A stretch of 64,000 bases of DNA from an uncultured Tenacibaculum sp. (GTDB taxonomy: Bacteria > Bacteroidota > Bacteroidia > Flavobacteriales > Flavobacteriaceae). The position numbers were made by a program, and so were the translations under genes. Positions 6,133 through 56,988 of this stretch are shown piece by piece (the first letter of the stretch is position 1; each line of letters starts with the position of its first letter). The notes beneath the pieces were generated by a model. The model was given only the letters and a program-made list of their open reading frames with translations. It was not told where the DNA came from and made no database searches. The stretch lies in the NCBI GenBank assembly GCA_947497895.1, contig CANMIL010000004.1, forward strand, positions 62,001-126,000, read 5' to 3'.

Positions 6133-6215
6133 CTTTTTCTTCGTTGTAGTTAGTTACGCAAGTATAGCGAAAACAAAGGGGAATTCAAAGGGAGAAACTA
6201 AACGAAAAAGCAGAA

Positions 6216-6240
6216 AAAACACCTCCTTATGAGGTGTTTT
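6216..6240 (-). terminator. rho-independent terminator
   Basis: AAAACACCTC / GAGGTGTTTT stem with 5-nt loop, downstream of the 274-aa lipoprotein gene on the minus strand; AT runs on both sides make it potentially bidirectional. Confidence 0.75.
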
Positions 6241-6315
6241 AATTATTTCTATTTTTTCTAACTAAAAATTATTTATACTTTCTAAAGGTAACTATCTCTC
6301 GTTTTATTACCCGTT

Positions 6316-7140
6316 TTATTCGTAACTAAAATATAACTCACCTAACAACTCTCCATCATAATAATATTTTCTTGTCAACGGTGCATTAAAATCATTTAAT
6401 GTATATAAATACTCGATTTCAGAGAGATCTGAAGTAATTTTAGAAATTAACCTAGTATTGAAAGACTGAGCTGAATCTGCTAAGGAATTATTCATTAAAA
6501 CAGGGTTTAACAAATTATCTCCATAAACACTTGCATAAGAAAAAGGATAAGTACCATTTTCTTGATATAAATAATTATATCTTGTTGAAAATGAAGTTAA
6601 ACTAATTAAATTGAAATCCGTATCGTATTCCGCCGATACCCTCACCTCATTATTTACAATTTCTTTATTAATAACACCTCTATTTCCAATTTTAAAAACC
6701 TTCAACGAAATATTTCCATTTGAATTTGTTTCACTCACAATGGTATTGTCACTATTATAAGTGAAGCTCGTAATTGCTATGTCACTACCTTTTGTTCTTT
6801 TCGTTTCTTTTATGCGATTGGCATCATCATAACTAATATTCTTCTCATAATCCACTGTTCCATTTGGCAAATATCCTTTTTCTGAAAGCAAAACATTATT
6901 ATTCGAATAATTCCATTCGTGAATATATGTGAGTTCATTATTCTCATTATAAAATGATGATTTAATGGGTTTATTATTACTAAACTCCGTAATAATTCTT
7001 TCCGATAACTCATCATTTTCAAATATTCTCTGTTCAGTTCTAATTAAATTAAGCGTATTATTTTCAATAAGTTCAATATTTTCAGATGAGCACGAAGTTA
7101 ATAGTAATACAATAAATGCTAGTAAAAATACTTTTTTCAT
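6316..7140 (-). CDS. lipoprotein with repeated YD-like strands
   Basis: A 274-residue lipoprotein: signal MKKVFLLAFIVLLLTSCSS with the lipidated Cys at residue 17. The mature part is rich in short repeated beta-strand units of the type (I/N)TSFTYNSDNTIVSE and YDDANRIKETKR, as in DUF4595/RHS-like host lipoproteins of Bacteroidota. It likely sits in the outer membrane; function unknown. It is the last host gene before the prophage. Confidence 0.85.
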   Translation of the reverse strand: MKKVFLLAFIVLLLTSCSSENIELIENNTLNLIRTEQRIFENDELSERIITEFSNNKPIKSSFYNENNELTYIHEWNYSNNNVLLSEKGYLPNGTVDYEKNISYDDANRIKETKRTKGSDIAITSFTYNSDNTIVSETNSNGNISLKVFKIGNRGVINKEIVNNEVRVSAEYDTDFNLISLTSFSTRYNYLYQENGTYPFSYASVYGDNLLNPVLMNNSLADSAQSFNTRLISKITSDLSEIEYLYTLNDFNAPLTRKYYYDGELLGELYFSYE

Positions 7141-7241
7141 AGGTTTTAAATTTGTAGGTTCTTATAACAATATTTTTCGAGGAAAAGCCAGTCACTCTTA
7201 ATTGTTTTAAAGACTGTTAACACTTCCTAATAAAAACAAAA

Positions 7242-7267
7242 AAGCCTTACTAAAACTAGTAAGGCTT
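7242..7267 (-). terminator. original terminator of tRNA-Arg, displaced by prophage insertion
   Basis: AAGCCTTACTA / TAGTAAGGCTT hairpin with 4-nt loop immediately next to the attL core. It corresponds in position and sequence style to the hairpin now following the intact tRNA-Arg at 56885-56910, so it is read as the host terminator that followed the tRNA before the phage inserted. Confidence 0.8.
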
Positions 7268-7287
7268 ATTGTGATCGCGACAGGATT
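7266..7287. other. attachment site attL (core repeat)
   Basis: The sequence GTGATCGCGACAGGATT with 5 preceding bases is identical to the 3' end of tRNA-Arg at 56909-56930. Identity stops exactly at 7288. It represents the displaced bacterial tRNA 3' fragment and is not a working tRNA. Confidence 0.95.
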
Positions 7288-7335
7288 ATATTTTCACACT
7301 CCTAAGCCCTTTAAATACTAGGTTTATATTTTTTT

Positions 7336-7358
7336 GTTGACAGTTTTGTTGACACTTT
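7336..7358. promoter_or_regulatory. putative integrase arm-type sites, left arm
   Basis: Two direct copies of GTTGACA (GTTGACAGTTTT and GTTGACACTTT) lie about 50 bp inside the left end. The same pair with the same spacing occurs at 56770-56792 inside the right end, which fits arm-binding sites of a tyrosine recombinase. Confidence 0.65.
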
Positions 7359-7451
7359 CTTTATTTAACTCATAACAACGTTTCTTTATAACAATTCGGC
7401 AAAGTTATATAAAAATCCATTATCTCAATTAAATATTTATATATTTACAAC

Positions 7452-7473
7452 ATCTATGCAGACGTGCATAGAT
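7452..7473. other. 9-bp perfect hairpin near the left end
   Basis: ATCTATGCA / TGCATAGAT with loop GACG, followed by a T-rich run (TTTCTTTTT). It could be a terminator or part of a small RNA; a second terminator hairpin follows 20 bp later. Confidence 0.5.
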
Positions 7474-7494
7474 TTTCTTTTTCATAGCAATTTT

Positions 7495-7523
7495 CCCACT
7501 CAATCTTTTGAGTGGGTTTTTTA
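7495..7523 (+). terminator. rho-independent terminator before the ExoVII-like gene
   Basis: CCCACTCAA / TTGAGTGGG stem, loop TCTT, then TTTTTTA. It insulates the prophage cargo gene from rightward transcription entering across the left end. The ORF-track start TTG at 7508 lies inside this stem, which argues for the ATG at 7562. Confidence 0.8.
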
Positions 7524-7561
7524 TTTTATATATTGGAAGTATAAAATTAGCTATACTAAAC

Positions 7562-8596
7562 ATGACTACTCTAAGCTCAGAATATACAGTTGAATCGATT
7601 ATACACTTATATAGAGATAGTATCCGTACTAACTTTGATGAGAAAATTGTTACTCTCGAAGGTTTTTATCATGGATCGGGTAAACAATCTTACAATGGTG
7701 TTTATTATGATAGAATTTATGATGCTGACAAACTGCATAATCTAACAATTATAATTAAAGATCAACAAAGAAAGGGACTAATAACAGGACAATACTACCG
7801 ATTTAATGGCTTTATAAATCGTAGTGGCCAAATAGCAAAAGATGGTTCAATTCGTTATGGCTTTAGAGTAACTAAAATAGTTGAGCAATTAGATCAGCAC
7901 AAGTTCATTTCAAAAGATGAATTTGATTTAATACGTCAGCGTTTTGATAAAGATTCAGTAGATATACAAAGCTATTTACTTGAGATTATTAGAAACGGTA
8001 AAAGACCTAATATTCATATAATTTTAGGATCAACTTCAATTGTCGATGCTGATTATAAAAGCCAATTAAACGAGGATCATATTTTCAACATAACCGAGGA
8101 AAGAGTTAATTTCAGTAGAAGTTCTGAACTATTAAATGCATTTTCAGGAAATGACAATCAGGACAATGATCTAATCGTTTGCATGCGTGGTGGTGGTTCA
8201 GGATTAGAAATATTCAATAATACTGATTTAGCTAATCAAGTAGTCAAACTGCAAACACCATTTGTAACTGCTTTGGGGCATAAATCAGATCTTTCAATGA
8301 CTGAAAGAATGGCTGATCGTGGTTTTCCTACTCCAACAGCATTTGGTTCTTTTCTTAGTTTTATAGAAAACATCTATCTATCAGAAATTCAAGAACTGAA
8401 AGAAAAGGATACTAAAATAAAAGACCTAAATAAGAGAATTGAAGCTCTGGAGGTAAAACATAATAACGATAAAGAAGAACTAAAATTACTCTATACTGAA
8501 CTACAAATAAAAGATCAAAAGAAAATCAAAAAATTAAGTTTAGCTCTTCTTATAGCTTTCTTAGCTATTATAGTTCTATGGTTAATTTTAAAATAG
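7562..8596 (+). CDS. exonuclease VII large-subunit-like protein with C-terminal membrane anchor
   Basis: I choose ATG 7562 (344 aa) because the track start is a TTG in a terminator stem. Residues ~20-110 fit a small OB-like domain; ~150-270 contain the XseA catalytic-domain signatures: DLIVCMRGGGS, DLANQVVKLQTPFVTALGHKSD and ADRGFPTPTAFGS. A coiled coil (~275-320) replaces the usual long XseA helical tail and a single TM helix (LSLALLIAFLAIIVLWLIL) ends the protein. Canonical ExoVII degrades ssDNA with the small subunit XseB; none is encoded here and the protein is membrane-tethered, so a phage-exclusion or DNA-entry role is conceivable. It is the outermost prophage gene at attL, opposite in strand to the structural genes, typical for cargo. 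Confidence 0.85.
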   Translation: MTTLSSEYTVESIIHLYRDSIRTNFDEKIVTLEGFYHGSGKQSYNGVYYDRIYDADKLHNLTIIIKDQQRKGLITGQYYRFNGFINRSGQIAKDGSIRYGFRVTKIVEQLDQHKFISKDEFDLIRQRFDKDSVDIQSYLLEIIRNGKRPNIHIILGSTSIVDADYKSQLNEDHIFNITEERVNFSRSSELLNAFSGNDNQDNDLIVCMRGGGSGLEIFNNTDLANQVVKLQTPFVTALGHKSDLSMTERMADRGFPTPTAFGSFLSFIENIYLSEIQELKEKDTKIKDLNKRIEALEVKHNNDKEELKLLYTELQIKDQKKIKKLSLALLIAFLAIIVLWLILK

Positions 8597-8623
8597 GTTT
8601 ATTCTGATTCATTTGAAACCTGA

Positions 8624-9358
8624 TCAACTAAATAAATCATTTAATTCTGGATAATGAAAAGGTTCTAAAATATCAGGTCTATCACTATTAACTTTTGGTT
8701 TATAGATGTCTTGAGAAACTGGATAAGCTTGAATCGGTTCATCTGTAAAGGAAATGAGTAGTTCTTCAATCGAGGTTCGGTTATTTTTACAATAAAGCCA
8801 ATCCAATCTTCGCTCCTTAGACAATATTAACGGTTGTCTATTCTTTCCATTGTTATGAATTTTTCTAAAATAATCATTGGCTTCCATAGTAATTATGGTT
8901 GCAGAATATAAAGAAGAAGATCCGTTATCTATTTCACTATAAAGACCTGCAAACGCAAACAAACCATCATCTTCTTTTCTAAAATTAAATGGTATCGAAC
9001 CTTTTATATCTGGATCTTTATGAGGCTCAATAAATCCATCAGCAATTATTAGACATTTTTGCCATCCAATAAACTCAGAAAAAAAAGAACTTGTAAATAC
9101 ATTCTCACTCCTGGCATTAAAAGTTTTATAATCACGGAAAAACTCTTTTCTCTTACTTAAATCATATCCTGTAGGAAGTAAGCCCCAAGAAGCAAAATCA
9201 ATTAGTTCGGGGTCGTCTTGTCTAATAATATACAGGTTCTTATCCTCATACATATTAAAATCGAAGTAAGGTTTATAAACATCTGGCTCAGAAAAAGGAA
9301 TATTAAATTCGTTTTCCACCTCTTCTCTACTTTTCTTTATAGAAATTCTGTAACACAT
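8624..9358 (-). CDS. SRAP (YedK/HMCES-like) abasic-site processing protein
   Basis: A 244-residue protein with the SRAP family layout: Cys2 directly after the initiator Met (MCYRI), NARSE (KTFNARSENV), the acidic GFIEPH in place of the usual GFYEW, and the His-containing block IHNNGKNRQPLIL. In this family the N-terminal Cys forms a thiazolidine crosslink with abasic sites in ssDNA. It is convergent with the ExoVII-like gene; both handle ssDNA, so they could be a DNA-damage or counter-defence pair, though they are not in one operon. Confidence 0.9.
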   Translation of the reverse strand: MCYRISIKKSREEVENEFNIPFSEPDVYKPYFDFNMYEDKNLYIIRQDDPELIDFASWGLLPTGYDLSKRKEFFRDYKTFNARSENVFTSSFFSEFIGWQKCLIIADGFIEPHKDPDIKGSIPFNFRKEDDGLFAFAGLYSEIDNGSSSLYSATIITMEANDYFRKIHNNGKNRQPLILSKERRLDWLYCKNNRTSIEELLISFTDEPIQAYPVSQDIYKPKVNSDRPDILEPFHYPELNDLFS

Positions 9359-27557: not shown

Positions 27558-28986
27558 GAGATGTTATTTCATTTTGAATGTCTTTGTTAATATTTTCCAG
27601 CTCATCTATTGCATTTTCAGACAGTGAGATAATTTTAATAGCTGTTTCCCTTGACATAAAGCGCCCATCAATTGCAGTTTTTAGAGTTGACACTATACCG
27701 GCTAGATCATTTGGCAACACACTTTGAAAATCAACATCATAAATAAGTTTTTTTCTAAAACTGTTTAATTTAATCTCAGTGGTTGTGCAAATACCTGATT
27801 TTATCACATTAACAATTCTCTGAATATCAGTAGTATTTTGACCTTGATTACTTAACGCCTTTAATTTAGAATCCAAAAACATTAATTCTAAAGCGACCCC
27901 TGTAACATTCCCAATACCTTTTAAGCTATCGAATGATAAGTCAGGAGTACTAGTGAGGTAATTAATCAAACCTTTAAGCTCATGCAACTCTAGTTCAACA
28001 CTTTTCGGGGCGTTGTCATGTGTTAAAAACTTAGCATCTCCATGTACTGGCTTTCCTGTGTCTTCATCATACACTACAGGAGCATTAAGAAGTTTTCCAT
28101 CACTATCACGATCTGGCATTCCACTAACTTCGCCTACAGTAAATAATAGTGGTGAACCTGAGTAATTATTTGATGCACCTAACTTCGATAATAGCGTTTC
28201 GTAACGATCGATTAATTCTTTCACATCTTCATGTTCAGGAGCTTCTTGAGACATATAGACACAGGGTATTATGTCAAACCCATGAGATTCGGATTGATCA
28301 AGTTTCCATCCGTCACTATCAGATTGATACTTGGTAATTAACTTTTCATCGTAAATCCATAGATTTCTTATTTCCGTATCTTCTTTTTTTGTCTTGAACT
28401 CCCAAACGAATAATATCATATCTCCAAAATCATCAAAAACAGGATGAAAAACACCACTATTAAAGTCAAGAACTTTACTTTTTATTTCTGGAGTATTATT
28501 TTTTTTGAGAATATTAAAGATTATTGCCGTCTGTGTTTGGCTTCGTTGAATTTCTTTTAATTCTTGGAGTTTAGAATCAAGCCTATTTTTTTTCCAAACT
28601 TGTAAAACAGTTTCAAATAATTGGTTAGCTTCAGAAGGTATTAACTTGACAGGATTGGCGAACTCAAACGCTACACTCGTTCTTGTTATCTTCTTGGCAA
28701 AATTCACTGGAGTTCTAATAGCCTTAACTATTTCCTTCAATCTGGTTTCCATGATAGGCTCTCCACTATTATCGTATTCACCTGTTGAAATTTGCTCATA
28801 AATGGATTTATCTTTTTGAGTTTTCCCAATTTGAGTATCACGAATTGACCTATCTCGATGGGTATATTCATTGTAATATTCCTCGATAATATCCTCGTCT
28901 TTTTTATTTAGCTTTAGACGATTTAAAATTGTTCCATCTAATTCTCCTTGCCTTATTTTCTCTATAATATCTTTCATTGTTATCAA
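27544..28986 (-). CDS. portal protein (SPP1 gp6-like)
   Basis: A 480-residue protein with the layout of SPP1-type portals: wing start (YYNEYTHRDRSIRDTQIGKT), ANPVKLIPSEANQLFETVLQVWKKN, and the helical crown (LKTAIDGRFMSRETAIKIISLSENAIDELENI). Overlaps the large terminase by 4 bp. It forms the dodecameric ring through which DNA is packaged. Confidence 0.88.
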   Translation of the reverse strand: MITMKDIIEKIRQGELDGTILNRLKLNKKDEDIIEEYYNEYTHRDRSIRDTQIGKTQKDKSIYEQISTGEYDNSGEPIMETRLKEIVKAIRTPVNFAKKITRTSVAFEFANPVKLIPSEANQLFETVLQVWKKNRLDSKLQELKEIQRSQTQTAIIFNILKKNNTPEIKSKVLDFNSGVFHPVFDDFGDMILFVWEFKTKKEDTEIRNLWIYDEKLITKYQSDSDGWKLDQSESHGFDIIPCVYMSQEAPEHEDVKELIDRYETLLSKLGASNNYSGSPLLFTVGEVSGMPDRDSDGKLLNAPVVYDEDTGKPVHGDAKFLTHDNAPKSVELELHELKGLINYLTSTPDLSFDSLKGIGNVTGVALELMFLDSKLKALSNQGQNTTDIQRIVNVIKSGICTTTEIKLNSFRKKLIYDVDFQSVLPNDLAGIVSTLKTAIDGRFMSRETAIKIISLSENAIDELENINKDIQNEITSHGDQ

Positions 28987-30527
28987 ATATTAATACCTAA
29001 TTCACCAATTGTTTTGGCCCTTGTCCCTCTTTTTTTAGTTTTCTTTCTTCCACAATAAGCTACATACTGTTTCTTAAAGTACTCGCATAAGAAGTAATCA
29101 TCTGTATCAGTTAAATGCCCATACTTCTCGTAAGTTACCTTGGTTATTGGGTGCTTTGTTTTCTCTTTAAACTTGGTGCCATCCGAAGCCTCTTTGACAC
29201 TTTCATAATCATCAATAGTTTTAGGGCATTTGGAAGAAATATGATAACTAGCACCAGGGATAGAACCAATTAAAAGTTCATTAATAAAACCTCCCCTACT
29301 ATGAACATTTGGGTTCTTACTAGGTAGCCTCCTTTTGTGGTTGAAATCATTATCTGTGAGATTATCCTCAACTATTGTAAAAAAGTTTTGCCCTTTTTCT
29401 AGCTTGGAATCAGATTTTAGAGAAGTTCTATCCCCATAAATATAAATCAGTTTATCATGGTCGGGATATCTTTTAATAAGTTCTTTTAAAGCATGTTTTA
29501 ATGTGTTTCTGGGATGCTCCAAACATATCTCATCTATCTTCCAAGCTCTTAAGCCCTTTCCTTGATATACCGATATTGTAACATAAGGATTTACGTTTTC
29601 ATCAAATGAAATATGTAACGGTAAATCAGGGTCGTATTCATTATCCCTAACATTTCTCTCCGCTTTGAAGTTCTTATAAAACTCGCCGCCTCTATTCAAT
29701 TTACCCCAATTCCCTAGGGCATATATGGAATAGAAATTATAGTCAGTATTTCTATCATGATCGAAATCAGCAATGGTTTGTATATCGACAAAACCAAAAG
29801 TTTTACAAGGAGAACCAACTACCCAAAAGTTATTTAAATAAGTTGACTTAATCACAACAAAATTTGGAGGATAAGTTTCACCATTTACAACTACTTCATT
29901 CCCCTCCCATTTTTCCGTTACTTCGGTGTATCGATCATCTATGTTTAATTGAAGAACTCCATTGTGATCGACTAAAGAATTTGAAAGTTCATTTCTCACC
30001 TCTCTATCAAAAACCTCTTTTTTAATCCAGTGTTCTTTATCAATTGGATTGAACATGCATATTATTTGCTGCCCTTCCATTCCTCTTAAACGCTTTCTTA
30101 TTTGTTTGAAATCTGCAAAGTCAAATTCAGATACTTCTTCTAACACAACCCTTTTCACAGTAATACCCTTTATTTTTTCAGGATCATCAAGTCCTTTAAA
30201 AACTATTTCGGCACCAGTAACGCATTTTATTTTTTTGGCTTGAATAATAAAAAATTGGTCTAAACCTAAATCTTTTATAACATCTTTAAATGTTTTAAAT
30301 ACACTGCCATCAATGGTAGCAGAAACCTTTCTAAACACCAAAGTATCTGCCCCTTCCAAAAGTGAAGCGATAATAATAATTGCCTGGGCAACCGAATAAG
30401 ATTTAGCAGACGAAGAACCTCCATAGCACCAAATAAACCTTCGATGTATGTTAGTAAGCTCCTTTTCAAGGTGATGAAAATTAGGGTTAAAGAGCTTCCA
30501 ATTAAACTTTAATTGAACCTTTGCCAC
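28983..30527 (-). CDS. terminase large subunit
   Basis: A 514-residue motor: Walker A-like CYGGSSSAKSYSVAQ (~residues 34-48), Walker B VLEEVSEFDF (~130), coupling-type CMFNP, and a nuclease half with HISFDENVNP and YIYGDRTS acidic residues. It packages DNA into the head. Translationally coupled to portal by an ATGA-type overlap and follows the small subunit by 6 bp. Confidence 0.92.
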   Translation of the reverse strand: MAKVQLKFNWKLFNPNFHHLEKELTNIHRRFIWCYGGSSSAKSYSVAQAIIIIASLLEGADTLVFRKVSATIDGSVFKTFKDVIKDLGLDQFFIIQAKKIKCVTGAEIVFKGLDDPEKIKGITVKRVVLEEVSEFDFADFKQIRKRLRGMEGQQIICMFNPIDKEHWIKKEVFDREVRNELSNSLVDHNGVLQLNIDDRYTEVTEKWEGNEVVVNGETYPPNFVVIKSTYLNNFWVVGSPCKTFGFVDIQTIADFDHDRNTDYNFYSIYALGNWGKLNRGGEFYKNFKAERNVRDNEYDPDLPLHISFDENVNPYVTISVYQGKGLRAWKIDEICLEHPRNTLKHALKELIKRYPDHDKLIYIYGDRTSLKSDSKLEKGQNFFTIVEDNLTDNDFNHKRRLPSKNPNVHSRGGFINELLIGSIPGASYHISSKCPKTIDDYESVKEASDGTKFKEKTKHPITKVTYEKYGHLTDTDDYFLCEYFKKQYVAYCGRKKTKKRGTRAKTIGELGINI

Positions 30528-30533
30528 TACCTC

Positions 30534-30965
30534 TTACCCCTCTTTTCCTCCAACATAAAAAGTGGTAATTTCTGTCTTAACCTCTTGTTTTTCGGTAAGT
30601 TTATTCAAACGAGAAGTAATACTAGGGTTGTAGAAACCAAGCAATCCCCCTACGATTTGATTTTCTCTGATTTCTTCCTTTATGTACGAACAGATACCAA
30701 CAAAGTCATTGTAATACTGACCTTTATTCAAGAAATACTGTTCTACACAGCCGTATTTTCTTCGACAAAATCTTTTGAATCCTTCTAAGGTTAATGGAAC
30801 TTTCTGTGGATCCTCTTTTCGTTCTGCATCCTTACCAACATATTGAACTTTCATCCATTCCTTGGACTGTTCTTTTACATCTTCCTTATACTTGTCAAAA
30901 GCTTTTGCTAAATCTTCAGGAGTATTAAAAATTCTTGTAGGATGAATATTACCATTTTTACCCAT
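30534..30965 (-). CDS. terminase small subunit / DNA-packaging protein
   Basis: A 143-residue protein: PLTLEGFKRFCRRKYGCVEQY and YNDFVGICSYIKEEIRENQIVGGLLGFYNPSITSRLNKL match the gp3-like small terminase family of Bacteroidota phages (HTH-like N-terminus plus an oligomerisation helix). First gene of the late operon; an array of direct repeats lies just upstream. Confidence 0.88.
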   Translation of the reverse strand: MGKNGNIHPTRIFNTPEDLAKAFDKYKEDVKEQSKEWMKVQYVGKDAERKEDPQKVPLTLEGFKRFCRRKYGCVEQYFLNKGQYYNDFVGICSYIKEEIRENQIVGGLLGFYNPSITSRLNKLTEKQEVKTEITTFYVGGKEG

Positions 30966-31840: not shown

Positions 31841-31890
31841 TATTTTAACGACTTACTCAATTGCATCTATTAATACTTATAAATTAAATC

Positions 31891-31933
31891 TTTGACAATA
31901 AAAAACCACTTCATTCGAAGTGGTTGTGGTAAG
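31891..31933 (-). repeat. cassette trailer (element C), includes terminator
   Basis: On the minus strand: CTTACCACAA, then hairpin CCACTTC/GAAGTGG, TTTTTTATTGTCAAAGA. It is the trailer half of the repeat element found complete at 32420-32545 and 34326-34453, with no leader half. It terminates the ExoX-C gene transcript. Confidence 0.8.
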
Positions 31934-31949
31934 CTTATGTTATTCTCTT

Positions 31950-32357
31950 TTATTTAGCGTTATTGATTTCTCGTATTTTTTCTGGAAATCTAAAATTTTC
32001 TAATTCTTCAACTGAGCTTCCGCTCTGAATCATTTCTTTGATTTCAGAAACGCTAAAAAAAGGATTTACTGTATCAGTTTTATCAACAAGCTCGATTAAC
32101 ATTTCAATATTAAATTCTTCCTTTCCTTCAATTCTTTTCAATAAATCTGATTTTATTTCTTCAAACCAACGCTTATTATAACCAATAGTCGTTGGCGCAG
32201 GTAGGTTTTCAAACTTTTCTATGTCAATTTTGAAATCCTTAATCTCAAAGATTGCCCATTCCAAATAACTCGGTTGATACTCATAAATTTCTGCTAATGT
32301 CAGGCCTTTGTTTTTTCCAAAATTAATTCTATCAGAAGGTTGTAGTGATTTAATCAT
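31950..32357 (-). CDS. cassette gene 3: exodeoxyribonuclease X C-terminal-like domain protein
   Basis: A 135-residue protein. The start (INFGKNKGLTLAEIYEYQPSYLEWAI) is the FGK-x-KG-x-x-x-x-E-[IV] ... YL-x-W signature of the domain found at the C-terminus of ExoX and in many phage proteins; here it stands alone with no exonuclease domain. The rest (~80 residues) is a charged helical extension. Bracketed by the leader of element B and the trailer of element C. Likely DNA-related, function unknown. Confidence 0.78.
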   Translation of the reverse strand: MIKSLQPSDRINFGKNKGLTLAEIYEYQPSYLEWAIFEIKDFKIDIEKFENLPAPTTIGYNKRWFEEIKSDLLKRIEGKEEFNIEMLIELVDKTDTVNPFFSVSEIKEMIQSGSSVEELENFRFPEKIREINNAK

Positions 32358-32419
32358 AATTTCAATTCCAATATGTTATTAGGATAAATGCTTTATTGAA
32401 TATATTAAAATCATTTAAT

Positions 32420-32545
32420 CTTACCACAATGATGTCAAAGAACTTTTCCGTTTTTAAGGTATCGGAGAACCTACTCTTATTTTATAATTCGTTTACTAAA
32501 TCTTGGACATAAAAAAACACCTTAATTAAGGTGTTTTGTGGTAAG
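32420..32545 (-). repeat. cassette boundary element B (trailer + leader)
   Basis: 126 bp. On the minus strand it starts CTTACCACAA, has a terminator hairpin (ACACCTTAATTAAGGTGT), GTCCAAGATTTAGTAAA, then the leader block AGGTTCTCCGATACC, TTAAAAACGGAAAAGTTC, TTTGACATCATTGTGGTAAG. The ends are an inverted repeat (CTTACCACAA / TTGTGGTAAG). Same order as element A over its whole length; only the terminator stem sequence differs. Confidence 0.85.
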
Positions 32546-32592
32546 TGTTATATGTTTAAACTAGGTTTTGTGCCTAAACTTAAAAGTACTAA

Positions 32593-34086
32593 TTAATTCT
32601 TTATCACTTTTTTTAAGGCTACTTTATTATCCTTACTTTCTATTTTTACTAGATATACTCCTTTAGAGAAACCACTAAAATCAATGGCACTTTTTTTTGT
32701 TTCCGAAATTTTATTTCCCAAAACAGAATATACCTCCACTCTTTTGATTTCCGATAAAATTGGTAGAGAAACAGTTAATTGATTATTTACTGGATTAGGA
32801 GCTATGGAGACATTAGTATTAAATACTTTATCAATACTCGCTGTTTCACAATTTTCACTGTAACTAACAGTGTCATCCTTTCCCCATGAATGTGGTATAT
32901 TATTAACATCATCCACTTGAATACATGTAAGATCTTCGTTATCAAAAGACAACATTGTTTGCATGTTTCTATTGCTACCGTTTTTTAAATCTAAACTCGT
33001 AAGTTGATTACGAGAACACCATAAATGAGTTAACTCCGTATTTTGAGATACATCTAAACTCGTAAGGGAATTAACACGACAAATTAGCTCTGTTAACTCC
33101 GTATTTTGAGATACATCTAAACTCGTAAGTTGGTTGTGATCACACCACAAATGAGTTAACTCCGTGTTTTGAGATACATCTAAACTCATAAGATAATTAT
33201 CAGAACAATCTAAATAAGTTAACTCCGTATTTTGAGATACATCTAAACTCGTAAGAGAATTATTATGACACCATAATTCAATTAACTCCGTATTTTGAGA
33301 TACATCTAAACTCGTAAGGGAATTAAAAGAACACCATAATTGAGTTAACTCCGTATTTTGAGATACATCTAAACTCGTAAGGGAATTAACACGACAAATT
33401 AGCTCTGTTAACTCCGTATTTTGAGATACATCTAAACTCGTAAGGGAATTATTATGACAATATAAAACAGTTAACTCCGTATTTTGAGATACATCTAAAC
33501 TCGTAAGGGAATTAATATGACAAAATAAATAAGTTAACTCCGTATTTTGAGATACATCTAAACTCGTGAGTTGATTATCATCACACCTTAATCGAATTAA
33601 CTCCGTATTTTGAGATACATCTAAACTCGTAAGGCTATTACCTTTACACCTTAATCGAATTAACTCCGTATTTTGAGATACATCTAAACTCGTAAGAGAA
33701 TTATTATGACACAATAAATCAGTTAGCTCCGTATTCTTTGATAAATCTAAACTCGTAAGTTGATTGACATAACACCATAATCGAGTTAACTTTGTGTTTT
33801 TGGAAACATCTAAACTCGTAAGGGAATTATTATGACAATCTAATTCAGTTAACTCCACAAAAGCTTCAATCCCCGTTAAATCCGAGATTTCTCTATAAGA
33901 AACATAAATCGTACCAGTAAAAGACTCGGCTTCGCTCACTTGTATCTCTGAATCGCCATTGGTGTTAATTTGAGTATTACCTATCAAATAAGCTTTAAAA
34001 TTAGCATCTGGGATGTTTACATTTTGTGCTTTTATAAGCATTGATAAACAAAAAAGAAGTAGTAATAGTAAGTAGTTTTTTTTCAT
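32593..34086 (-). CDS. cassette gene 2: type IX-secreted leucine-rich-repeat protein
   Basis: A 497-residue exported protein: signal peptide (MKKNYLLLLLLFCLSMLIKAQ), an LRR cap (NVNIPDANFKAYLIGN), 14 repeats of 21 residues with consensus LTxLxCxxNxLTSLDVSQNTE, and a C-terminal type IX secretion sorting domain (FNTNVSIAPNPVNNQLTVSL ... GVYLVKIESKDNKVALKKVI). The invariant halves are identical at DNA level in about ten repeats; the x positions fall on the LxxLxCxxN strand, the concave ligand face of LRRs. Being host-secreted, it is cargo, probably surface-exposed on the lysogen: adhesin, receptor mask or immune-like binder. It has leader A upstream with about 240 nt of 5' region and trailer B downstream. 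Confidence 0.9.
   Translation of the reverse strand: MKKNYLLLLLLFCLSMLIKAQNVNIPDANFKAYLIGNTQINTNGDSEIQVSEAESFTGTIYVSYREISDLTGIEAFVELTELDCHNNSLTSLDVSKNTKLTRLWCYVNQLTSLDLSKNTELTDLLCHNNSLTSLDVSQNTELIRLRCKGNSLTSLDVSQNTELIRLRCDDNQLTSLDVSQNTELTYLFCHINSLTSLDVSQNTELTVLYCHNNSLTSLDVSQNTELTELICRVNSLTSLDVSQNTELTQLWCSFNSLTSLDVSQNTELIELWCHNNSLTSLDVSQNTELTYLDCSDNYLMSLDVSQNTELTHLWCDHNQLTSLDVSQNTELTELICRVNSLTSLDVSQNTELTHLWCSRNQLTSLDLKNGSNRNMQTMLSFDNEDLTCIQVDDVNNIPHSWGKDDTVSYSENCETASIDKVFNTNVSIAPNPVNNQLTVSLPILSEIKRVEVYSVLGNKISETKKSAIDFSGFSKGVYLVKIESKDNKVALKKVIKN
33000..33860 (-). repeat. 63-bp tandem repeats encoding the LRRs
   Basis: About 14 units of 63 bp. A backbone (read on + as TTAACTCCGTATTTTGAGAT, ACATCTAAACTCGTAAG) is identical in about ten units, while the remaining ~25 bp vary. 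Two units (LTELICRVN...) appear twice with the same sequence. Expected to recombine or slip easily. Confidence 0.9.
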
Positions 34087-34325
34087 AATTTTAACTTTTA
34101 CAATGTATTATGTATGTTGGAAAAAAAGATTACGTAAACTACCCTTTTAGAATAAGCATAGTTTTTATTTGAAAATAAATGTTGATTTGAGGTCTTAGCT
34201 ATTTTTAATGTGCATCTTTTTCACAACTTACAATTTCTTGTAAAGATATTTTATTTTTTTAATTCTCTTACAACTCCATTATTTTTTTTTGGAATCTAAA
34301 AAAATACAATTGTAAAAGAATCTCA
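34087..34325. other. 5' region of the LRR gene
   Basis: About 240 bp between leader A and the LRR start codon, very AT-rich, no ORF seen. Contains T-runs and a partial GGAATCT sequence also seen in the late repeats. A long 5' leader for the LRR transcript is the simplest reading. Confidence 0.4.
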
Positions 34326-34453
34326 CTTACCACAATTATGTCAAAGAACGTTTTTCCGTTTTTCAGGTATCGGAGAACCTACTGTTTTTTAAATATTCTT
34401 TTACTAAATTTTTGACAATAAAAAACCACTTCAATTGAAGTGGTCATGGTAAG
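34326..34453 (-). repeat. cassette boundary element A (trailer + leader)
   Basis: 128 bp. Minus strand: CTTACCATGA, hairpin CCACTTCAATTGAAGTGG, TTTTTTATTGTCAAA, ATTTAGTAAA, then AGTAGGTTCTCCGATACC, GAAAAACGGAAAAACG, TTTGACATAATTGTGGTAAG. It ends the 145-aa gene transcript and leads into the LRR gene. The leader block contains an imperfect dyad TTCTCCG / CGGAAAA. Confidence 0.85.
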
Positions 34454-34473
34454 TTGGTTTGTATTTAAATAAT

Positions 34474-34911
34474 CTATTTTTTAGACGCTTTAATTTGCTC
34501 CTCTAAAAACGATATTTTTTTTTGTGCTCTATCTAAATCATCTCTTAATAAATTGATTTGATTTAAGTTTTGGTTGATGTTTTCCAATTTTTGAAGCTGT
34601 AATTCTTGCCAAGTTTTATCTCCTTCGAAATCCCGATAACTAAAGTAAATAGAAAATAAAGAGGAAATAAGTGTTGTTATGACCACAATTATACTTAAAC
34701 GAAATGCTCTTCCAGATATTTTAAGACTCGACTTAGCTGATCTTCGCTCTAGTTCTTGATTAGCTATCTGAGCGAGAGTCATTTTGTCATTTGGTGAAGG
34801 TTTACCATTGGAACTTTTCCAAAAATTAAAATATTGTGTTAGATTAAAATTGATAGATTCTTTAAGTTCTTCTTCAGAATCCGTTAAGTTAGGTAGTTTA
34901 AAATCATTCAT
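34474..34911 (-). CDS. cassette gene 1: small single-pass membrane protein with coiled coil
   Basis: A 145-residue protein: N-terminal soluble helix region (ESINFNLTQYFNFWKSSNGK), one TM helix (~85-105, LSIIVVITTLISSLFSIYFS), and a C-terminal coiled coil (INQNLNQINLLRDDLDRAQKKISFLEEQI). No family recognised. First cassette of the array, bracketed by leader D and trailer A. Confidence 0.75.
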   Translation of the reverse strand: MNDFKLPNLTDSEEELKESINFNLTQYFNFWKSSNGKPSPNDKMTLAQIANQELERRSAKSSLKISGRAFRLSIIVVITTLISSLFSIYFSYRDFEGDKTWQELQLQKLENINQNLNQINLLRDDLDRAQKKISFLEEQIKASKK

Positions 34912-34950
34912 GAATTTTGTTTTTTACCAAAACTAAATAACAACATCCAA

Positions 34951-35003
34951 CTTACCAATTATGTCAATGAACTTTTCCGTTTTTAAGGTACCGGAGAACC
35001 TAC
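34951..35003 (-). repeat. cassette leader (element D)
   Basis: Minus strand: TGTAGGTTCTCCGGTACC, TTAAAAACGGAAAAGTTC, ATTGACATAATTGGTAAG. It is the leader half only; its first bases form the TAG stop codon of the upstream gene (35000-35269). Leader-only here and trailer-only at 31891 bracket exactly three cassettes. Confidence 0.8.
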
Positions 35004-35269
35004 ACTTTTTTTAATGGTTGTACATTGCTCGGTTCTACGATTATTCTCTCTTTTATATCGGAACCGTATTTTTTTTCAAACTTTTCAGTTTCTCCCCACC
35101 AGCACTCGCACCCCCATACATACTTTCCTGAATCTAATTTGATGCATGGGTTTGTGATGTTTAAATCTTTAAAGGGATTCATATCTGGAACTTGATCTTT
35201 TATCAGCTCTCCTTCGCCGTATGTTCTTAGAACACCATTTTTAAAGCTTTCTATTGCTATTACTCTCAT
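35000..35269 (-). CDS. hypothetical phage protein
   Basis: An 89-residue small protein (MRVIAIESFKNGVLRTYGEG...), with a Trp/Cys-rich segment YVWGCECWWGE. Its stop codon is part of leader D. It starts 7 bp after the QTRR-family gene, so it belongs to the small-gene operon. Not recognised. Confidence 0.75.
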   Translation of the reverse strand: MRVIAIESFKNGVLRTYGEGELIKDQVPDMNPFKDLNITNPCIKLDSGKYVWGCECWWGETEKFEKKYGSDIKERIIVEPSNVQPLKKV

Positions 35270-35276
35270 CGTTTAA

Positions 35277-35978
35277 CTACTGTTTAAAAGATTCAGGTTT
35301 CACTATCGTCTCGAAATCATACACCCATACCCAAGGATTTTCTTCTAATGACTCTTTACCATTTATTGACCACCAAAGAGTGAAAAAACTTGCTTTCCAT
35401 CCAGAATGAGAAGGTACTTTTTCCATTACATAAGGAGCATCACCAAAGAAATATTGATGTTTAAAACCATCCTTTTCACCGCACATATAATTTAAAGGAG
35501 CTTTTTCTCCCCAATAATCATCCGTAATGTAAATTCCCTCATTTTTGGAATCTTCGTCTGAAATATCGTGCAGTCTTTCAATTCTTACATTTTTAACTTT
35601 TAGAAATAATCTACAAGCTTTTTTAGGCATAAAAATTGAAGGCTTCCAACCTTGCCAATCTTCAATATTATATTCATCATTTTCACCATCTGCTCGATAA
35701 ATAAATTCTTCTTTCCCTGTTTTGTATGAGTTTATTAATTGCCATGTTTCGCGAACCCACAATACATCACCTTTTTGATATTTTGCTTTACAAGAAATAA
35801 AGTTTTCATCTGTACTTCTTTGATTAGATCCAATTCCGAAGCAATAACCTTCTTGACAGAAACCTACATTTTCGGAAAGTGTAGGCTGAGGCTTCACAAT
35901 TCGTCTGGTTTGGTTTTTTGCGCCATTCATGATAGCTTTTACCATTTCCTTATTAAATAATATCGGTCTTATCTTCAT
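35277..35978 (-). CDS. phage protein of the QTRR / ASCH-like family
   Basis: A 233-residue protein beginning KIRPILFNKEMVKAIMNGAK followed by NQTRRIVKPQP, the signature of a family widespread in phages and prophages; KGDVLWVRETW and RLFLKVKNVRIERLHDIS support an ASCH/PUA-like nucleic-acid-binding fold. Precise function unknown. Two bp after the upstream gene stop, so operonic. Confidence 0.82.
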   Translation of the reverse strand: MKIRPILFNKEMVKAIMNGAKNQTRRIVKPQPTLSENVGFCQEGYCFGIGSNQRSTDENFISCKAKYQKGDVLWVRETWQLINSYKTGKEEFIYRADGENDEYNIEDWQGWKPSIFMPKKACRLFLKVKNVRIERLHDISDEDSKNEGIYITDDYWGEKAPLNYMCGEKDGFKHQYFFGDAPYVMEKVPSHSGWKASFFTLWWSINGKESLEENPWVWVYDFETIVKPESFKQ

Positions 35979-35980
35979 AA

Positions 35981-36496
35981 TTACTGGTTTTTTGGTTCAT
36001 TGAATATCTGAAGAGCCTCTAAATACTTTTTGTTATCTCCATACCATAAAAACTTTAAACCTTCGTAAAATTTAATAATGTGGTCATGAGTTTTAAAGAC
36101 TTTCTTTGGCAAATGGTAGGTGTATTCTTGCTCATAGTTGAAAGTTATTTTTTGTCCGCTTTTGTAGTGGTTTAAAAGACTTCTCATTATGGTTCGTGAT
36201 TTATCTGCACTGCAAGGGCTACCTTCTTTTTCTTCTATAATTCGGGCAAAATTATGTTCTATGAATTTTTGATTTTGGATTATGAAAACTACATCTCTAT
36301 TGTTTGCTATTTTACTTTTTACAAACCCACTTATGAATTGTTCAAACGGATATAAAACCGCATAGAAAAATCCTTCATGGTCTTTAATATCGGTGATTTT
36401 ATTAGTAGCTATTACTTTCTTAAACAAATCAATTTCTTTCTGTTCTATGCGACCAATCATAGAATCTAAAAATTTTGTTATGTCTTGTTTATCCAT
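35981..36496 (-). CDS. hypothetical phage protein
   Basis: A 171-residue, largely helical protein (MDKQDITKFLDSMIGRIEQKE...). Contains the region CSADKSRTIMRSLLNHYKSGQ. No family recognised. Part of the small-gene operon. Confidence 0.75.
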   Translation of the reverse strand: MDKQDITKFLDSMIGRIEQKEIDLFKKVIATNKITDIKDHEGFFYAVLYPFEQFISGFVKSKIANNRDVVFIIQNQKFIEHNFARIIEEKEGSPCSADKSRTIMRSLLNHYKSGQKITFNYEQEYTYHLPKKVFKTHDHIIKFYEGLKFLWYGDNKKYLEALQIFNEPKNQ

Positions 36497-36511
36497 TTCT
36501 TATCGTTTTTA

Positions 36512-36634
36512 CTACTGTTTTAAGGTTATGAACTGCTCAAAACTTACATTTGGATTACTAAGTCTAAAAATTTGATATTGTCCCCATAAATAGTTTCTCT
36601 TTAAAACTGGCTTGATTTTTTTACTGTTTTTCAT
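36512..36634 (-). CDS. 40-aa basic phage protein (below ORF-track cut-off)
   Basis: Read by eye: ATG at 36632-36634, TAG at 36512-36514; MKNSKKIKPVLKRNYLWGQY ... FEQFITLKQ. It sits 15 bp upstream of the next gene in the same direction, with an aromatic/basic composition. Not recognised. Confidence 0.6.
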   Translation of the reverse strand: MKNSKKIKPVLKRNYLWGQYQIFRLSNPNVSFEQFITLKQ

Positions 36635-36722
36635 CTTTTTGCGCTTTTGCGTTAATATTTGCGTTTTTGCGTAGCTCAATAGCTACTCTTTTACTTTATT
36701 TTGTTTTTACTAATTTTGATTC

Positions 36723-36878
36723 ATGCGTATATTAAAACTTTGGTATTGGCGATTATTACTAAGTGTCGTGGTTGGTCAAACTATCGTTCAATTATTTGAA
36801 GGATTTAATGACTATATTTTCGTTGGAACAATCGTAATATGTTTTGTTATTCTTTCCGCTATGGCTAAAAAGCTTTAA
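36723..36878 (+). CDS. 51-aa two-TM protein on the opposite strand
   Basis: Read by eye: MRILKLWYWRLLLSVVVGQT ... YIFVGTIVICFVILSAMAKKL, two hydrophobic helices with a short loop. It fills the 255-bp gap between minus-strand genes and is on the plus strand, like the lone membrane ORF at 13441. Could be a lysogeny-expressed membrane protein; no homologue recognised. Confidence 0.45.
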   Translation: MRILKLWYWRLLLSVVVGQTIVQLFEGFNDYIFVGTIVICFVILSAMAKKL

Positions 36879-36889
36879 CTACTGTATTT

Positions 36890-37147
36890 TTAGTTTTTGA
36901 TATTGTCTAATACATGAGAATATTTACTATTCTCAATCCATTCTTGAAGCTGATCCGATGGACTAAAAATCTCTGGGATCAATTCCATTGCGTTTTTTAT
37001 TGAAATTCTTTCAAATCGATTAGACCAGTTAAACTTCACATAAAACACAGGTCTTTGAATCCATTTTCTTTTCTCTGAATCATACCTTACAAATTGCCAA
37101 TCTTGTTTTGCTTCTTGAAGGTCTTCCCAAGTTATTTTCATATCCAT
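36890..37147 (-). CDS. hypothetical phage protein
   Basis: An 85-residue protein (ITWEDLQEAKQDWQFVRYDS...), Trp-rich, with VFYVKFNWSNRFERISIKNA. Not recognised. Operonic with its minus-strand neighbours. Confidence 0.7.
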   Translation of the reverse strand: MDMKITWEDLQEAKQDWQFVRYDSEKRKWIQRPVFYVKFNWSNRFERISIKNAMELIPEIFSPSDQLQEWIENSKYSHVLDNIKN

Positions 37148-37157
37148 TATGCTACAG

Positions 37158-37313
37158 TTAAAATTCGTTTTCTAAATAACTAGCTAAGTTTATTATTTGG
37201 TCAGCTCTTAAATTGTAATAAGTATTACTCGAATCAAACCAAGGTCTATCGCCTCCAATATCATTTGCAGACATCCATTCTTCAATTAATTCTGTTTTCG
37301 ATTTATTCTTCAT
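37158..37313 (-). CDS. 51-aa phage protein (below ORF-track cut-off)
   Basis: Read by eye: ATG at 37311-37313, TAA at 37158-37160; MKNKSKTELIEEWMSANDIG ... NYYNLRADQ-type acidic protein ending ASYLENEF. It closes the gap between two annotated genes with 10 bp and 36 bp spacing. Not recognised. Confidence 0.6.
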   Translation of the reverse strand: MKNKSKTELIEEWMSANDIGGDRPWFDSSNTYYNLRADQIINLASYLENEF

Positions 37314-37349
37314 CTTTTTATGTTTTTACGTAGCAGAAATGCTACAGGT

Positions 37350-46324: not shown

Positions 46325-46690
46325 CTATCCCCAATAAGCCAACTCAGCTACATTTCTGTTAATATTAAATGATGTGATATTATCGTTTAGTTCAGCTCTT
46401 CTATTTTCAACTAGCTTAATAATGCAATCAAAAATTTTGTTTTGCTCCCTTTCTGCTAATTGGACAGTTTCTTCATCATCTCCTAACCATACGAAAAGCT
46501 CATATTTATCTTTCTTACAACCGTAAACCATATCTAGTCTGAAATAGCCCCAACCTAACTCCTCTTCAGCATAAAAAGCACACTCATTTTCAAGACTATG
46601 TAAGTTGTTATCTTCGAACTGTATAGTACATACTTCTACTATCTTTTCAATTTGCTCAGTAGTAAGTGCGTTTTTAACGGTTGCTTCCAT
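46325..46690 (-). CDS. first early gene, intact copy of the duplicated pair
   Basis: A 121-residue acidic protein if started at MEATVKNALTTEQIEKI; the track start at 46744 would place the start inside the operator. Contains FAYEEELGWGYF-type and LFVWLGDDEETVQLAER segments. Its first 60 codons and promoter region are duplicated at 47390-47612 (98 percent identity). It is the first gene after the immunity promoter and hence a candidate Cro/antirepressor-position gene; no HTH seen. Confidence 0.75.
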   Translation of the reverse strand: MEATVKNALTTEQIEKIVEVCTIQFEDNNLHSLENECAFYAEEELGWGYFRLDMVYGCKKDKYELFVWLGDDEETVQLAEREQNKIFDCIIKLVENRRAELNDNITSFNINRNVAELAYWG

Positions 46691-46733
46691 TTTTTTTGTA
46701 AGTTTGTGTTGTTGAACAATACGAAGATATAAC
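46511..46733. repeat. 223-bp duplication, copy 1
   Basis: Aligns base for base with 47390-47612 at offset 879 with about 4 mismatches (98 percent). Covers the first ~60 codons of the early gene and its minus-strand promoter (GTTATATCTTCG). Confidence 0.9.
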
Positions 46734-46764: not shown

Positions 46765-46801
46765 TTTTTTGTTTGTTTTGTGTTTTTTATACTTATATAA
46801 T

Positions 46802-47215
46802 ATGCAAAAAAACAGACTCGAACTTATAATCAAGGAGCGAAAAAAGCAAGGAATAACTTGGGAGGAGTTATCAGATGGCCTTCCAATTGCTGGAAATTCG
46901 TTAAGAGTTGCTTTTACTCGTAAAAGTGTTGATGAAGTGTATATCGAACATGTAGAGTCTAAGCTAAACATTAAACAAAACAAACAAAACATACAACATG
47001 TCAAAAATGAGGATGATCAGGAAAACGACATCTATTACGAAAAAGACGGTGTTAAGATTAGTTTGGATGAAATATTATTATTTGTTTCGAAAAATGAAGA
47101 AAGATGTATGCAAGAAAAAATATTTTCTAATATTGTAGAAGTACGTGTTGCTAAACGTATATCAGAAATAACTGCTTCAAAAGAAAAACTAATGCAGTAT
47201 TTGGATATTTCTTAA
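46802..47215 (+). CDS. phage repressor-like protein 1
   Basis: A 137-residue protein from ATG 46802 (the track start at 46769 lies in the promoter). N-terminal HTH-like segment KERKKQGITWEELSDGLPIAG ... LRVAFTRKSVDEVYIEHVES, a linker rich in Asn/Gln, and a helical C-terminus (ERCMQEKIFSNIVEVRVAKR) suited to dimerisation. No peptidase domain. Divergent from the early operon. Confidence 0.75.
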   Translation: MQKNRLELIIKERKKQGITWEELSDGLPIAGNSLRVAFTRKSVDEVYIEHVESKLNIKQNKQNIQHVKNEDDQENDIYYEKDGVKISLDEILLFVSKNEERCMQEKIFSNIVEVRVAKRISEITASKEKLMQYLDIS

Positions 47216-47368: not shown

Positions 47369-47569
47369 TTAGTAATAATTTCCGATAATTTTCTTACAAC
47401 CGTAAACCATATCTAGTCTGAAATAGCCCCAACCTAACTCCTCTTCAGCATAAAAAGCACACTCATTTTCAAGACCATGTAAGTTGTTATCTTCGAACTG
47501 TATAGTACATACTTCTACTATCTTTTCAATTTGCTCGGTAGTAAGTGCGTTTTTAACGGTTGCTTCCAT
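47369..47569 (-). pseudogene. truncated copy of the first early gene
   Basis: 66 residues: the first ~60 match the 121-aa early gene (one Ser/Gly change), then the frame runs into IIGNYY-stop. Its intact promoter faces left, so its transcript would run antisense through the HTH fragment and repressor 1. Confidence 0.8.
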
Positions 47570-47612
47570 TTTTTTTGTAAGTTTGTGTTGTTGGATAATA
47601 CGAAGATATAAC
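47390..47612. repeat. 223-bp duplication, copy 2
   Basis: See copy 1 at 46511-46733; junctions are at the end of CGTAAGAAA-type sequence on the left and at the ATATAAC operator half on the right. Confidence 0.9.
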
Positions 47613-55428: not shown

Positions 55429-56727
55429 TTATTTACCTTTCTTGCTATAATATTCTTTCCAAAATCTTTTTAAATTCTCGGCATGCTCAGATGGTGTGAT
55501 TTGAATATATTTCAAAAAACTAGATTGTGTTTTATGTCCTGTTATCGCCATTATAGAAAGTATAGGAAAGTTCATTTTATAAAGATTAGTAGCGAAAGAC
55601 CTTCTACACACATGAGAGGCTATAAGCTCGTATTTTGGATATAATCCGGTTACTTTTCTTTTTACAAGATTAGTTTCCCCTTGAATTTTAATAAGCTTAG
55701 TAACGCCACCTTGAACCATTTGATCAAACCCAACAATTTCAGCGACTTCTTTAATATATTTATTGAACTTTACATCAGAAATTTTACGTGGCATCCCCCT
55801 GGTCTTAATAACTTCAACAATATGATGATGTAGAGGAATTACGACAGATACTCCAGTACTATTTTCAGTTTTTTTTGGTGTTACTTCAATAAATTCACTT
55901 TCTAAATCAATCTCTGGTAAAGATAAAAAATCATTAACCCTAAGCCCAGTCCACAATCCAATGATTAGTAAGTCACGCGCATTTTGCAACCTATCATTTT
56001 CTGAAAAATCGTATTCCAATATTTTCTGTATCTCTTCTTCATTAAACACAACCGCTTTCACCTTTTCAGATTGGACCACAAACGATTTTAACCCAGCTTC
56101 ATCTATTTTATACCCTCTTTCATAAGCCTTAGAAATTAATGTCTTTAAAGTCTTTATAATCTCCCCTATTGAATTATAAGAATACTTTCTATCCTGAAGA
56201 AAGCTTAAGAAAGAATCATAAACAGATGCGTTGAAACCATCTATTCTAATCTTGCGCCCATTCTTCGCTTCAAACTTCGTATAAATATTAAATCCTTTAT
56301 TATAATTCCTTATGGCAGAAGATTCGTAAACTTTTTTTGTTTTCCTATTTATTGTCTCAGGGGCCTTCACTAGAAAGTCCTCTACAAAATCTGAAAAGTA
56401 AACGAACCTCTCTTCTTTCCTTTTTTTTCCTAACTCTTCATCAAAAACATTCTTAAGATTTTCTTTAGTTAATAGAATATTATTTAAATCAAACTTCTCA
56501 ATAGTTCTCTCCAATAAATCTGAATACTTCTGTAGATTCCTTTTTATTAAACTTAGATCGGATCTCCCTCTTTTAGAAATTGGCGATCTAGTTTCGACAC
56601 TCCATTCGCTTGGTAAAATATTTAAACCCGTTGAATAAGTGAAACGCCCTTCTTGTTTCGAAATATAATATTTAAGAAGAATTGGTGAAGGTTTATCCGA
56701 ATTAGGTGTCCTAAGAAAAAAGCTCAT
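55429..56727 (-). CDS. tyrosine recombinase (phage integrase)
   Basis: A 432-residue integrase. Arm/core-binding regions at ~1-200 (SAM-like segment FSDFVEDFLVKAPETINRKT); catalytic residues Arg263 (TGLRVNDF), His372 and Arg375 (ASHVCRRSF), His398 (ITGHKTQ) and Tyr407 (FLKYIQ). Belongs to the Bacteroidota phage integrase SAM-like type. Located directly beside the intact tRNA-Arg with arm sites in between, so it is the enzyme of this prophage. Confidence 0.96.
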   Translation of the reverse strand: MSFFLRTPNSDKPSPILLKYYISKQEGRFTYSTGLNILPSEWSVETRSPISKRGRSDLSLIKRNLQKYSDLLERTIEKFDLNNILLTKENLKNVFDEELGKKRKEERFVYFSDFVEDFLVKAPETINRKTKKVYESSAIRNYNKGFNIYTKFEAKNGRKIRIDGFNASVYDSFLSFLQDRKYSYNSIGEIIKTLKTLISKAYERGYKIDEAGLKSFVVQSEKVKAVVFNEEEIQKILEYDFSENDRLQNARDLLIIGLWTGLRVNDFLSLPEIDLESEFIEVTPKKTENSTGVSVVIPLHHHIVEVIKTRGMPRKISDVKFNKYIKEVAEIVGFDQMVQGGVTKLIKIQGETNLVKRKVTGLYPKYELIASHVCRRSFATNLYKMNFPILSIMAITGHKTQSSFLKYIQITPSEHAENLKRFWKEYYSKKGK

Positions 56728-56884: not shown

Positions 56885-56910
56885 AAACCTTACTGAGTTC
56901 AGTAAGGTTT
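56885..56910 (-). terminator. terminator after tRNA-Arg, phage-supplied
   Basis: AAACCTTACTGA / TCAGTAAGGTTT near-perfect palindrome. It lies inside the prophage boundary and mimics the host hairpin at 7242-7267, so the phage restores transcription termination of the tRNA. Confidence 0.8.
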
Positions 56911-56930
56911 ATTGTGATCGCGACAGGATT
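56909..56930. other. attachment site attR (core repeat)
   Basis: Identical to 7266-7287 over 22 bp; overlaps the last 16 bases of tRNA-Arg. Confidence 0.95.
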
Positions 56931-56988
56931 CGAACCTGTGACCGTCTGCTTAGAAGGCAGATGCTCTATCCAGCTGAGCTACGCGACC
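56915..56988 (-). tRNA. tRNA-Arg(UCU)
   Basis: On the minus strand GGTCGCGTAGCTCAGC...GGTTCGAATCC...CGCGATCA folds into a cloverleaf with acceptor GGTCGCG/CGCGATC, anticodon TCT in CTTCTAA and discriminator A; CCA is not encoded. 74 nt. The 3' end is phage DNA after integration but sequence-identical. Confidence 0.97.

Follow-up and report, generated by a model that had tools for sequence, protein, structure and literature searches.

An internalin J-type leucine-rich repeat gene in a Tenacibaculum prophage: a candidate type IX-secreted adhesin with half-homogenised repeats in a GTAG-bounded cassette

How does a prophage come to hold a gene for a leucine-rich repeat (LRR) protein whose repeat units are nearly identical in one half and strongly variable in the other, and what might such a protein do for the lysogen? 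This question is raised by a window of 64,000 nucleotides from an uncultured Tenacibaculum sp. (assembly GCA_947497895.1, contig CANMIL010000004.1, positions 62,001 to 126,000), which is the whole stretch of DNA analysed here and to which all unprefixed coordinates refer. With a probability of roughly two in three, the observations are read jointly as those of a lysogenic-conversion adhesin of the internalin J (InlJ) type, which would be displayed through the host type IX secretion system (T9SS), whose repeats would be homogenised by recombination, and whose gene would form an exchangeable cassette bounded by GTAG.

The prophage spans positions 7266-56930 and includes terminase, portal, capsid and tape measure genes. 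A 22-bp attachment repeat (TTATTGTGATCGCGACAGGATT) marks its far end (7266..7287) and recurs at 56909..56930, at the 3' end of a tRNA-Arg gene (56914-56988), and a tyrosine integrase is encoded at 55429..56727 on the minus strand. The large and small terminase subunits (28983..30965, minus strand) adjoin the array of cassettes that includes the LRR gene; the small subunit was assigned by its position and by 42% identity to its counterpart in the related prophage of genome G111, whose terminase is 73% identical. Two duplications were also observed in the window: a 223-bp direct repeat, 98% identical (46511-46733 and 47390-47612), flanks a regulator-like gene (46769-47215) within the prophage, and the 3' portion of an S8 protease gene belongs to an 85% tandem duplication at the left window edge (2-537 and 1949-2482).

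The LRR gene lies at 32593..34086 on the minus strand and, according to the ORF call and family matches, encodes 497 residues from an ATG start. The N-terminus is hydrophobic by eye, and residues 1-20 (34027..34086, minus strand), which end in ...KAQ, are a predicted signal peptide, as suggested by their sequence and by a helix over residues 2-17 of the structural model. Fourteen LRR units of 21 codons each occupy residues 79-372 (32971..33852, minus strand), and residues 428-497 (32596..32805, minus strand) form a type A C-terminal sorting domain of the T9SS, identified by profile matches to Por_Secre_tail (E 2e-11) and to TIGR04183, whose cut-off it passes (44.6 vs 23 bits). Phage genes, attachment repeats, the sorting domain and the number of units all agree with the preliminary description of this locus as encoding a prophage-borne, T9SS-tagged LRR protein. 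The host genome encodes full-length SprA, a T9SS translocon gene, which makes export by this route plausible; a TIGR04183 domain, a hydrophobic N-terminus and SprA in the genome are the features by which type A cargo was recognised. As an accessory (moron) gene of the Tenacibaculum prophage, the LRR gene would give rise to a product that the lysogen exports by its own type IX system and, to judge from the sequence, probably displays on the cell surface for adhesion or ligand binding, in a form of lysogenic conversion.

Among solved structures, the best match to the LRR protein is internalin J (PDB 3bz5; phmmer E 3.7e-76), and Foldseek, run on an AF2 model with a mean pLDDT of 90, also placed 3bz5 at rank 1 (E 1e-24). 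The profile of the Listeria class 1 internalin InlJ, NF033187, matches with an E of 2e-78 and 264.6 bits, a score that does not reach its curated cut-off of 1700 bits. A cysteine occupies position 6 of LxxLxCxxN in 14 of 14 units, the arrangement of the InlJ-type cysteine ladder, and by its sequence the protein is assigned to this "cysteine-ladder" LRR type. It is in itself a new member of an already known family, matches to which were found in 54 of the 59 related genomes searched, with dozens each in several; matches in Listeria phages are unannotated or internalin-like fragments. In the AF2 model, strands span codons 3-5 of each unit, with x3 and x5 flanking the strand residue and facing the concave side, and x7 and x8 beside the concave face; the earlier proposal that the variable codons lie on this face is thus borne out in the model.

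Variation between the units was followed codon by codon. Tandem Repeats Finder detects a 63-bp array at 32989-33856 (score 932) together with a 189-bp period. Codons 3, 5, 7, 8 and 10 differ between units by a mean of 1.4-1.8 nt per codon, and the remaining codons by 0-0.8 nt each, in accordance with the initial claim of fourteen 21-residue repeats with strongly variable x codons; the list of x positions was right for 3, 5, 7 and 8, but position 2 (T/I) is not variable and position 10 is. Nine of the 14 units contain an exact copy of the 33-nt block CTTACGAGTTTAGATGTATCTCAAAATACGGAG, and LTSLDVSQNTE, exact or one position off, is found in 11; the DNA identity reported for this half is real. 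Units 8 and 13, offset by five units, are identical over 63 nt within a 104-nt exact tract, and this is the unit that had been noticed to occur twice unchanged and was taken as a trace of conversion or duplication.

The silent sites indicate how this pattern may have arisen. For units 3-13, with the duplicate unit 13 left out, codons 1-10 have a silent divergence (pS) of 0.35 and codons 11-21 one of 0.055, a difference that yields p 0.0015 upon permutation of codon columns and a bootstrap lower bound above zero. The DNA backbone is therefore not invariant across the whole unit, as had been supposed, but homogenised only in codons 11-21. Such a split suggests that recombination has homogenised the conserved half; neither a recent expansion of whole units nor selection at x positions only would divide the silent sites in this manner, which argues that exchange is confined to that half. 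In addition, end units 1, 2 and 14 are less homogenised, which matches a prediction of concerted evolution. On the evidence of the sequence, conversion or crossover in the identical block accounts better for the half-unit pattern than does selection at x positions alone. Acting between identical 33-nt half-units, gene conversion or unequal crossover would expand the repeats and keep them alike, and the exchange of half-units would shuffle the variable halves that form the concave ligand face, with no active mutagenic system involved.

Two other accounts of the repeats have to be weighed against shuffling by recombination. If the protein were a hypervariable receptor or adhesin, with its concave x positions under diversifying selection or targeted mutation and its backbone constant, as in VLRs or fungal NWD proteins, one could point to the location of the variable codons, which the model places on the concave face, and to pN at x codons, which is 0.605 vs a pS of 0.36 in the same half (pN/pS ~1.7), so that positive selection may act there. 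Furthermore, divergence at x equals that of chromosomal homologues though half of the unit is young, and there is a precedent in fungal NLR repeats, whose interface residues are under positive selection while the repeats evolve in concert (PMC4986451). However, silent sites in the x half have diverged as well, which suggests that this half is simply older, and the nucleotide difference at x codons (0.56) falls within the range of 28 homologous genes (0.45-0.69). Among the 29 genes, that of the prophage ranks first in homogenisation and is ordinary in x-codon divergence; as far as these sequences indicate, it appears unusual by its backbone and not by its x positions. No allele of the prophage gene was found in any collection searched. 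In an orthologous chromosomal pair from two species (L128/L129, 96% DNA identity), repeat order is identical and nonsynonymous changes number 4 of 172 at x positions vs 6 of 523 in the backbone, x being not clearly faster. There is also no reverse transcriptase near the LRR gene: a search for RVT_1 found none within the 64-kb window, as had been stated, and the only two RVT_1 genes of the genome lie on contig C22, on which ground the gene was ruled out as a target of a diversity-generating retroelement. What remains of the "diversifying receptor" first suggested are the concave variable codons and the traces of conversion, set against ordinary x variability, diverged silent sites and the stable order of the chromosomal pair, and a hypervariable role is accordingly considered unlikely. 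The two reverse transcriptase genes (C22:19711-21614, L133 and L134) are adjacent and possibly form a DRT-type defence pair.

An account of the opposite kind, given about the same low chance, is that of an ordinary, stable LRR adhesin whose DNA uniformity dates from a single recent expansion, after which shuffling did not go on. The chromosomal homologue that retains its repeat order across two species fits such stability, as does the wide difference in degree of homogenisation over the 29 genes, but a single expansion should leave both halves of the unit equally young, and the permutation test (p 0.0015) indicates that they differ.

The surroundings of the gene bear on how it reached the prophage. 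It is carried by a 1,908-bp cassette (32475..34382, minus strand) with GTAG on both sides, in which, as in each unit of this kind, the coding-strand order is R element, gene, L element. The R element (34325..34382, minus strand) is 58 nt long and consists of GTAG, a putative H-type pseudoknot and a conserved GTTC(A/T)TTGACATAATTGTGGTAAGT. The L element (32475..32546, minus strand), of ~70 nt, contains a ACTTACCACAA arm complementary to the R of its own cassette, an intrinsic-terminator-like hairpin, and ATGTCCAAGATTTAGTAAACGAATTATAAAATAA, part of the complementary arm being positioned 3' of the terminator. The cassette abuts two others at GTAG: one of 621 bp (34383..35003, minus strand), with a 145-aa membrane/coiled-coil ORF (34474-34911), and one of ~600 bp (31872..32474, minus strand), with a 135-aa ORF (31950-32357) that displays an ExoX-like C-terminal motif; the R copies around the LRR gene are spaced 1,908 and 621 bp apart. 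Beyond them lie a GTAG-bounded cassette with an 89-aa ORF that lacks R and L (35004..35280, minus strand) and, as the junction pattern suggests, the rest of a presumed array (35277..37345, minus strand), with intergenic (C/G)(A/T)GTAG junctions at 36515, 36686, 36882, 37155 and 37345.

R and L flank diverse genes across Tenacibaculum and Kordia. A strict R query matched 14 of 166 Tenacibaculum genomes, and also Kordia, and an L query matched 40 of the 166, with many matches short and partial. On GTDB contigs, other matches to the strict R pattern came from Williamsia, Bacillota, Gammaproteobacteria and others, and were taken as chance, judging from one such locus (L056) in which the R context is missing; in IMG/VR viral contigs none was found. 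An Rfam scan of positions 28-40 kb returned nothing up to E 1, and the cassette architecture has no counterpart in Rfam or in the open-access literature searched. The two elements co-vary: in 24 units, R and L arms from one unit fit each other more closely than arms paired by shuffling (1/5000 permutations), and pairing within the R pseudoknot was equalled in 0/10000 shuffles for stem 2 and 91/10000 for stem 1, figures that are optimistic since the tests ignore the relatedness of copies. Pairing was tested on ungapped segments because MAFFT alignment blurs the pseudoknot arms, and double-sided changes in stem 2 include TCCG/CGGA, TCGG/CCGA, TCGC/GCGA, TCAG/CTGA and TCTGA/TCAGA.

Comparison between loci reveals units that occur in different contexts with defined ends, as expected of mobile single-gene cassettes. 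A unit encoding a 162-aa secreted protein is 93-94% identical between an array of the same genome (L043) and a locus of G111 (L118); homology sets in precisely at GTAG, between flanks that are unrelated. The L118 copy adjoins a phage-like methyltransferase gene, carries a second GTAG 3' of L, and follows an ORF that stops with the TAG of the first GTAG. The 89-aa gene, which precedes the R-L units of the window, recurs at 98% DNA identity in another phage, contig L135, where a 282-bp block with GTAG at either cut end lies within an otherwise unrelated stretch and is followed by a different gene; in this contig, 7/7 TAG-ending ORFs end in GTAG. Over all loci compared, GTAG is present on both partners at 22/154 homology-block ends vs 0.55% at random, a count made optimistic by some overlapping alignments. 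An empty site was sought, without success, for the 87-aa gene that lies upstream of the G111 cassette. One region of L135 (2900-5550 of IMGVR_UViG_2634166274_000001) is an array of tiny genes with (A/C/G)(A/T)GTAG(T/A)TA-like junctions, and several of its blocks, ending at GTAG, are common to array L119 of genome G156, comparisons from these two being possibly derived from one strain. Arrays L119, L123, L126 and L043 are rich in small genes, among them those for double-glycine-leader (bacteriocin-like) peptides, for repeated MEHSYEQLNIEF-type proteins and for secreted GNVGIGTTSP proteins that resemble one another at the C-terminus.

The slot that holds the LRR gene itself looks exchangeable. 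Upstream of the terminase, the G111 prophage has an R-L cassette with a T9SS-tailed alpha/beta-hydrolase-like gene (L116 14612-15883), and an independent phage contig (L034) encodes a 318-aa InlJ-like LRR protein (5992-6948) directly before its terminase genes (7109-8724). The C-terminus of this last protein resembles a shortened T9SS tail. Under the proposed mechanism, a cassette unit (5' R, gene, 3' L with terminator) would enter or be replaced at a GTAG that in many cases supplies the stop codon of the preceding gene, and phages and chromosomal islands would thereby swap genes for secreted proteins.

What might move the cassettes is a matter on which several explanations compete. We tentatively suggest, at somewhat less than even odds, that a gene-cassette system not described before exists in Tenacibaculum and Kordia, with a GTAG-pseudoknot head, a terminator-element end with a co-varying arm, and arrays in prophages and chromosomal islands; with a similar degree of caution, a putative recombinase may insert the units at GTAG and so spread T9SS-secreted proteins such as the LRR adhesin. 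Mosaic phage genomes are common, and homologous recombination at shared linkers is a serious rival, judged about as probable: the junctions would be boundary sequences of modular phage evolution, with R as promoter or 5' leader and L as terminator. The linkers are indeed short and A-rich, and L contains a terminator-like hairpin, but R-L units are also present in arrays on chromosomes, away from any evident phage, the complementary arm of L extends in part beyond the terminator, and a linker needs neither R-L arm co-variation nor pseudoknot co-variation.

Explanations based on known mobile systems fare worse than either of these. It is improbable that a RAYT/Y1 (HUH) transposase moves the units as GTAG-tagged REP-like elements, even though GTAG REPs are characterised by a hairpin that follows GTAG (PMC3733652): a Y1_Tnp match is missing in the element-bearing genomes G095, G111 and G172 and present in many element-poor ones, whole gene units move rather than hairpins alone, and the survey in PMC3733652 does not report GTAG REPs for Bacteroidetes. 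Least probable is an attC cluster without integrase, that is, integron gene cassettes, in spite of the arrayed single-gene units, the imperfectly palindromic junctions that have both an outer and an inner arm, and the integrons reported in phages (PMC9892861). The attC core GTTRRRY / RYYYAAC is not conserved, GGTAAGT and variants taking its place in most element copies; arms co-vary between the R and L that flank one gene; first genes have R upstream and last genes L downstream; and IntI was above cut-off in none of 8 element-bearing genomes. This candidate was rejected for want of both attC core and IntI.

If the adhesin reading holds, lysogenic conversion would be tied to type IX secretion, the phage supplying its marine host with an InlJ-type surface binding protein; many Flavobacteriaceae interact with algae and fish. 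Should a dedicated enzyme indeed move the GTAG cassettes, they would represent a non-integron gene-capture system in this family.

Several described systems are partial counterparts. The cassettes share exchangeable single-gene arrays and palindromic junctions with phage integron cassettes (PMC9892861), but differ in that R-L units lack a conserved GTT core and IntI and show the opposite arm pairing. As in GTAG REP/RAYT systems (PMC3733652), GTAG precedes a base-paired element, although here it heads the pseudoknot of a gene-sized unit and the transposase link is absent. The repeats resemble those of fungal NLR proteins (NWD, ANK, TPR; PMC4986451) in their near identity, variable binding-face residues and concerted evolution; the latter are not homologous to the LRR gene, and positive selection and allele variation are demonstrated for them only. 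The LRR protein agrees with Listeria internalin J (3bz5) in repeat length, LxxLxCxxNxLTxLDVSxNTx consensus and fold, but has a T9SS tail instead of an LPXTG anchor and is phage-borne. In Flavobacterium psychrophilum, the number of LRR proteins varies among strains and several have TIGR04183 domains (PMC8400371, PMC5682007); these tandem surface proteins offer the same flavobacterial combination of LRR and TIGR04183, encoded in a chromosomal cluster rather than a prophage cassette (PMC8400371, PMC5682007, PMC9723704). Finally, InlJ of Porphyromonas gingivalis is a known adhesin that binds Candida Als3 (PMC5915736), and provides the example of an InlJ-family surface adhesin in a member of the Bacteroidota with a T9SS; its gene is chromosomal, whereas that of Tenacibaculum resides in a prophage.
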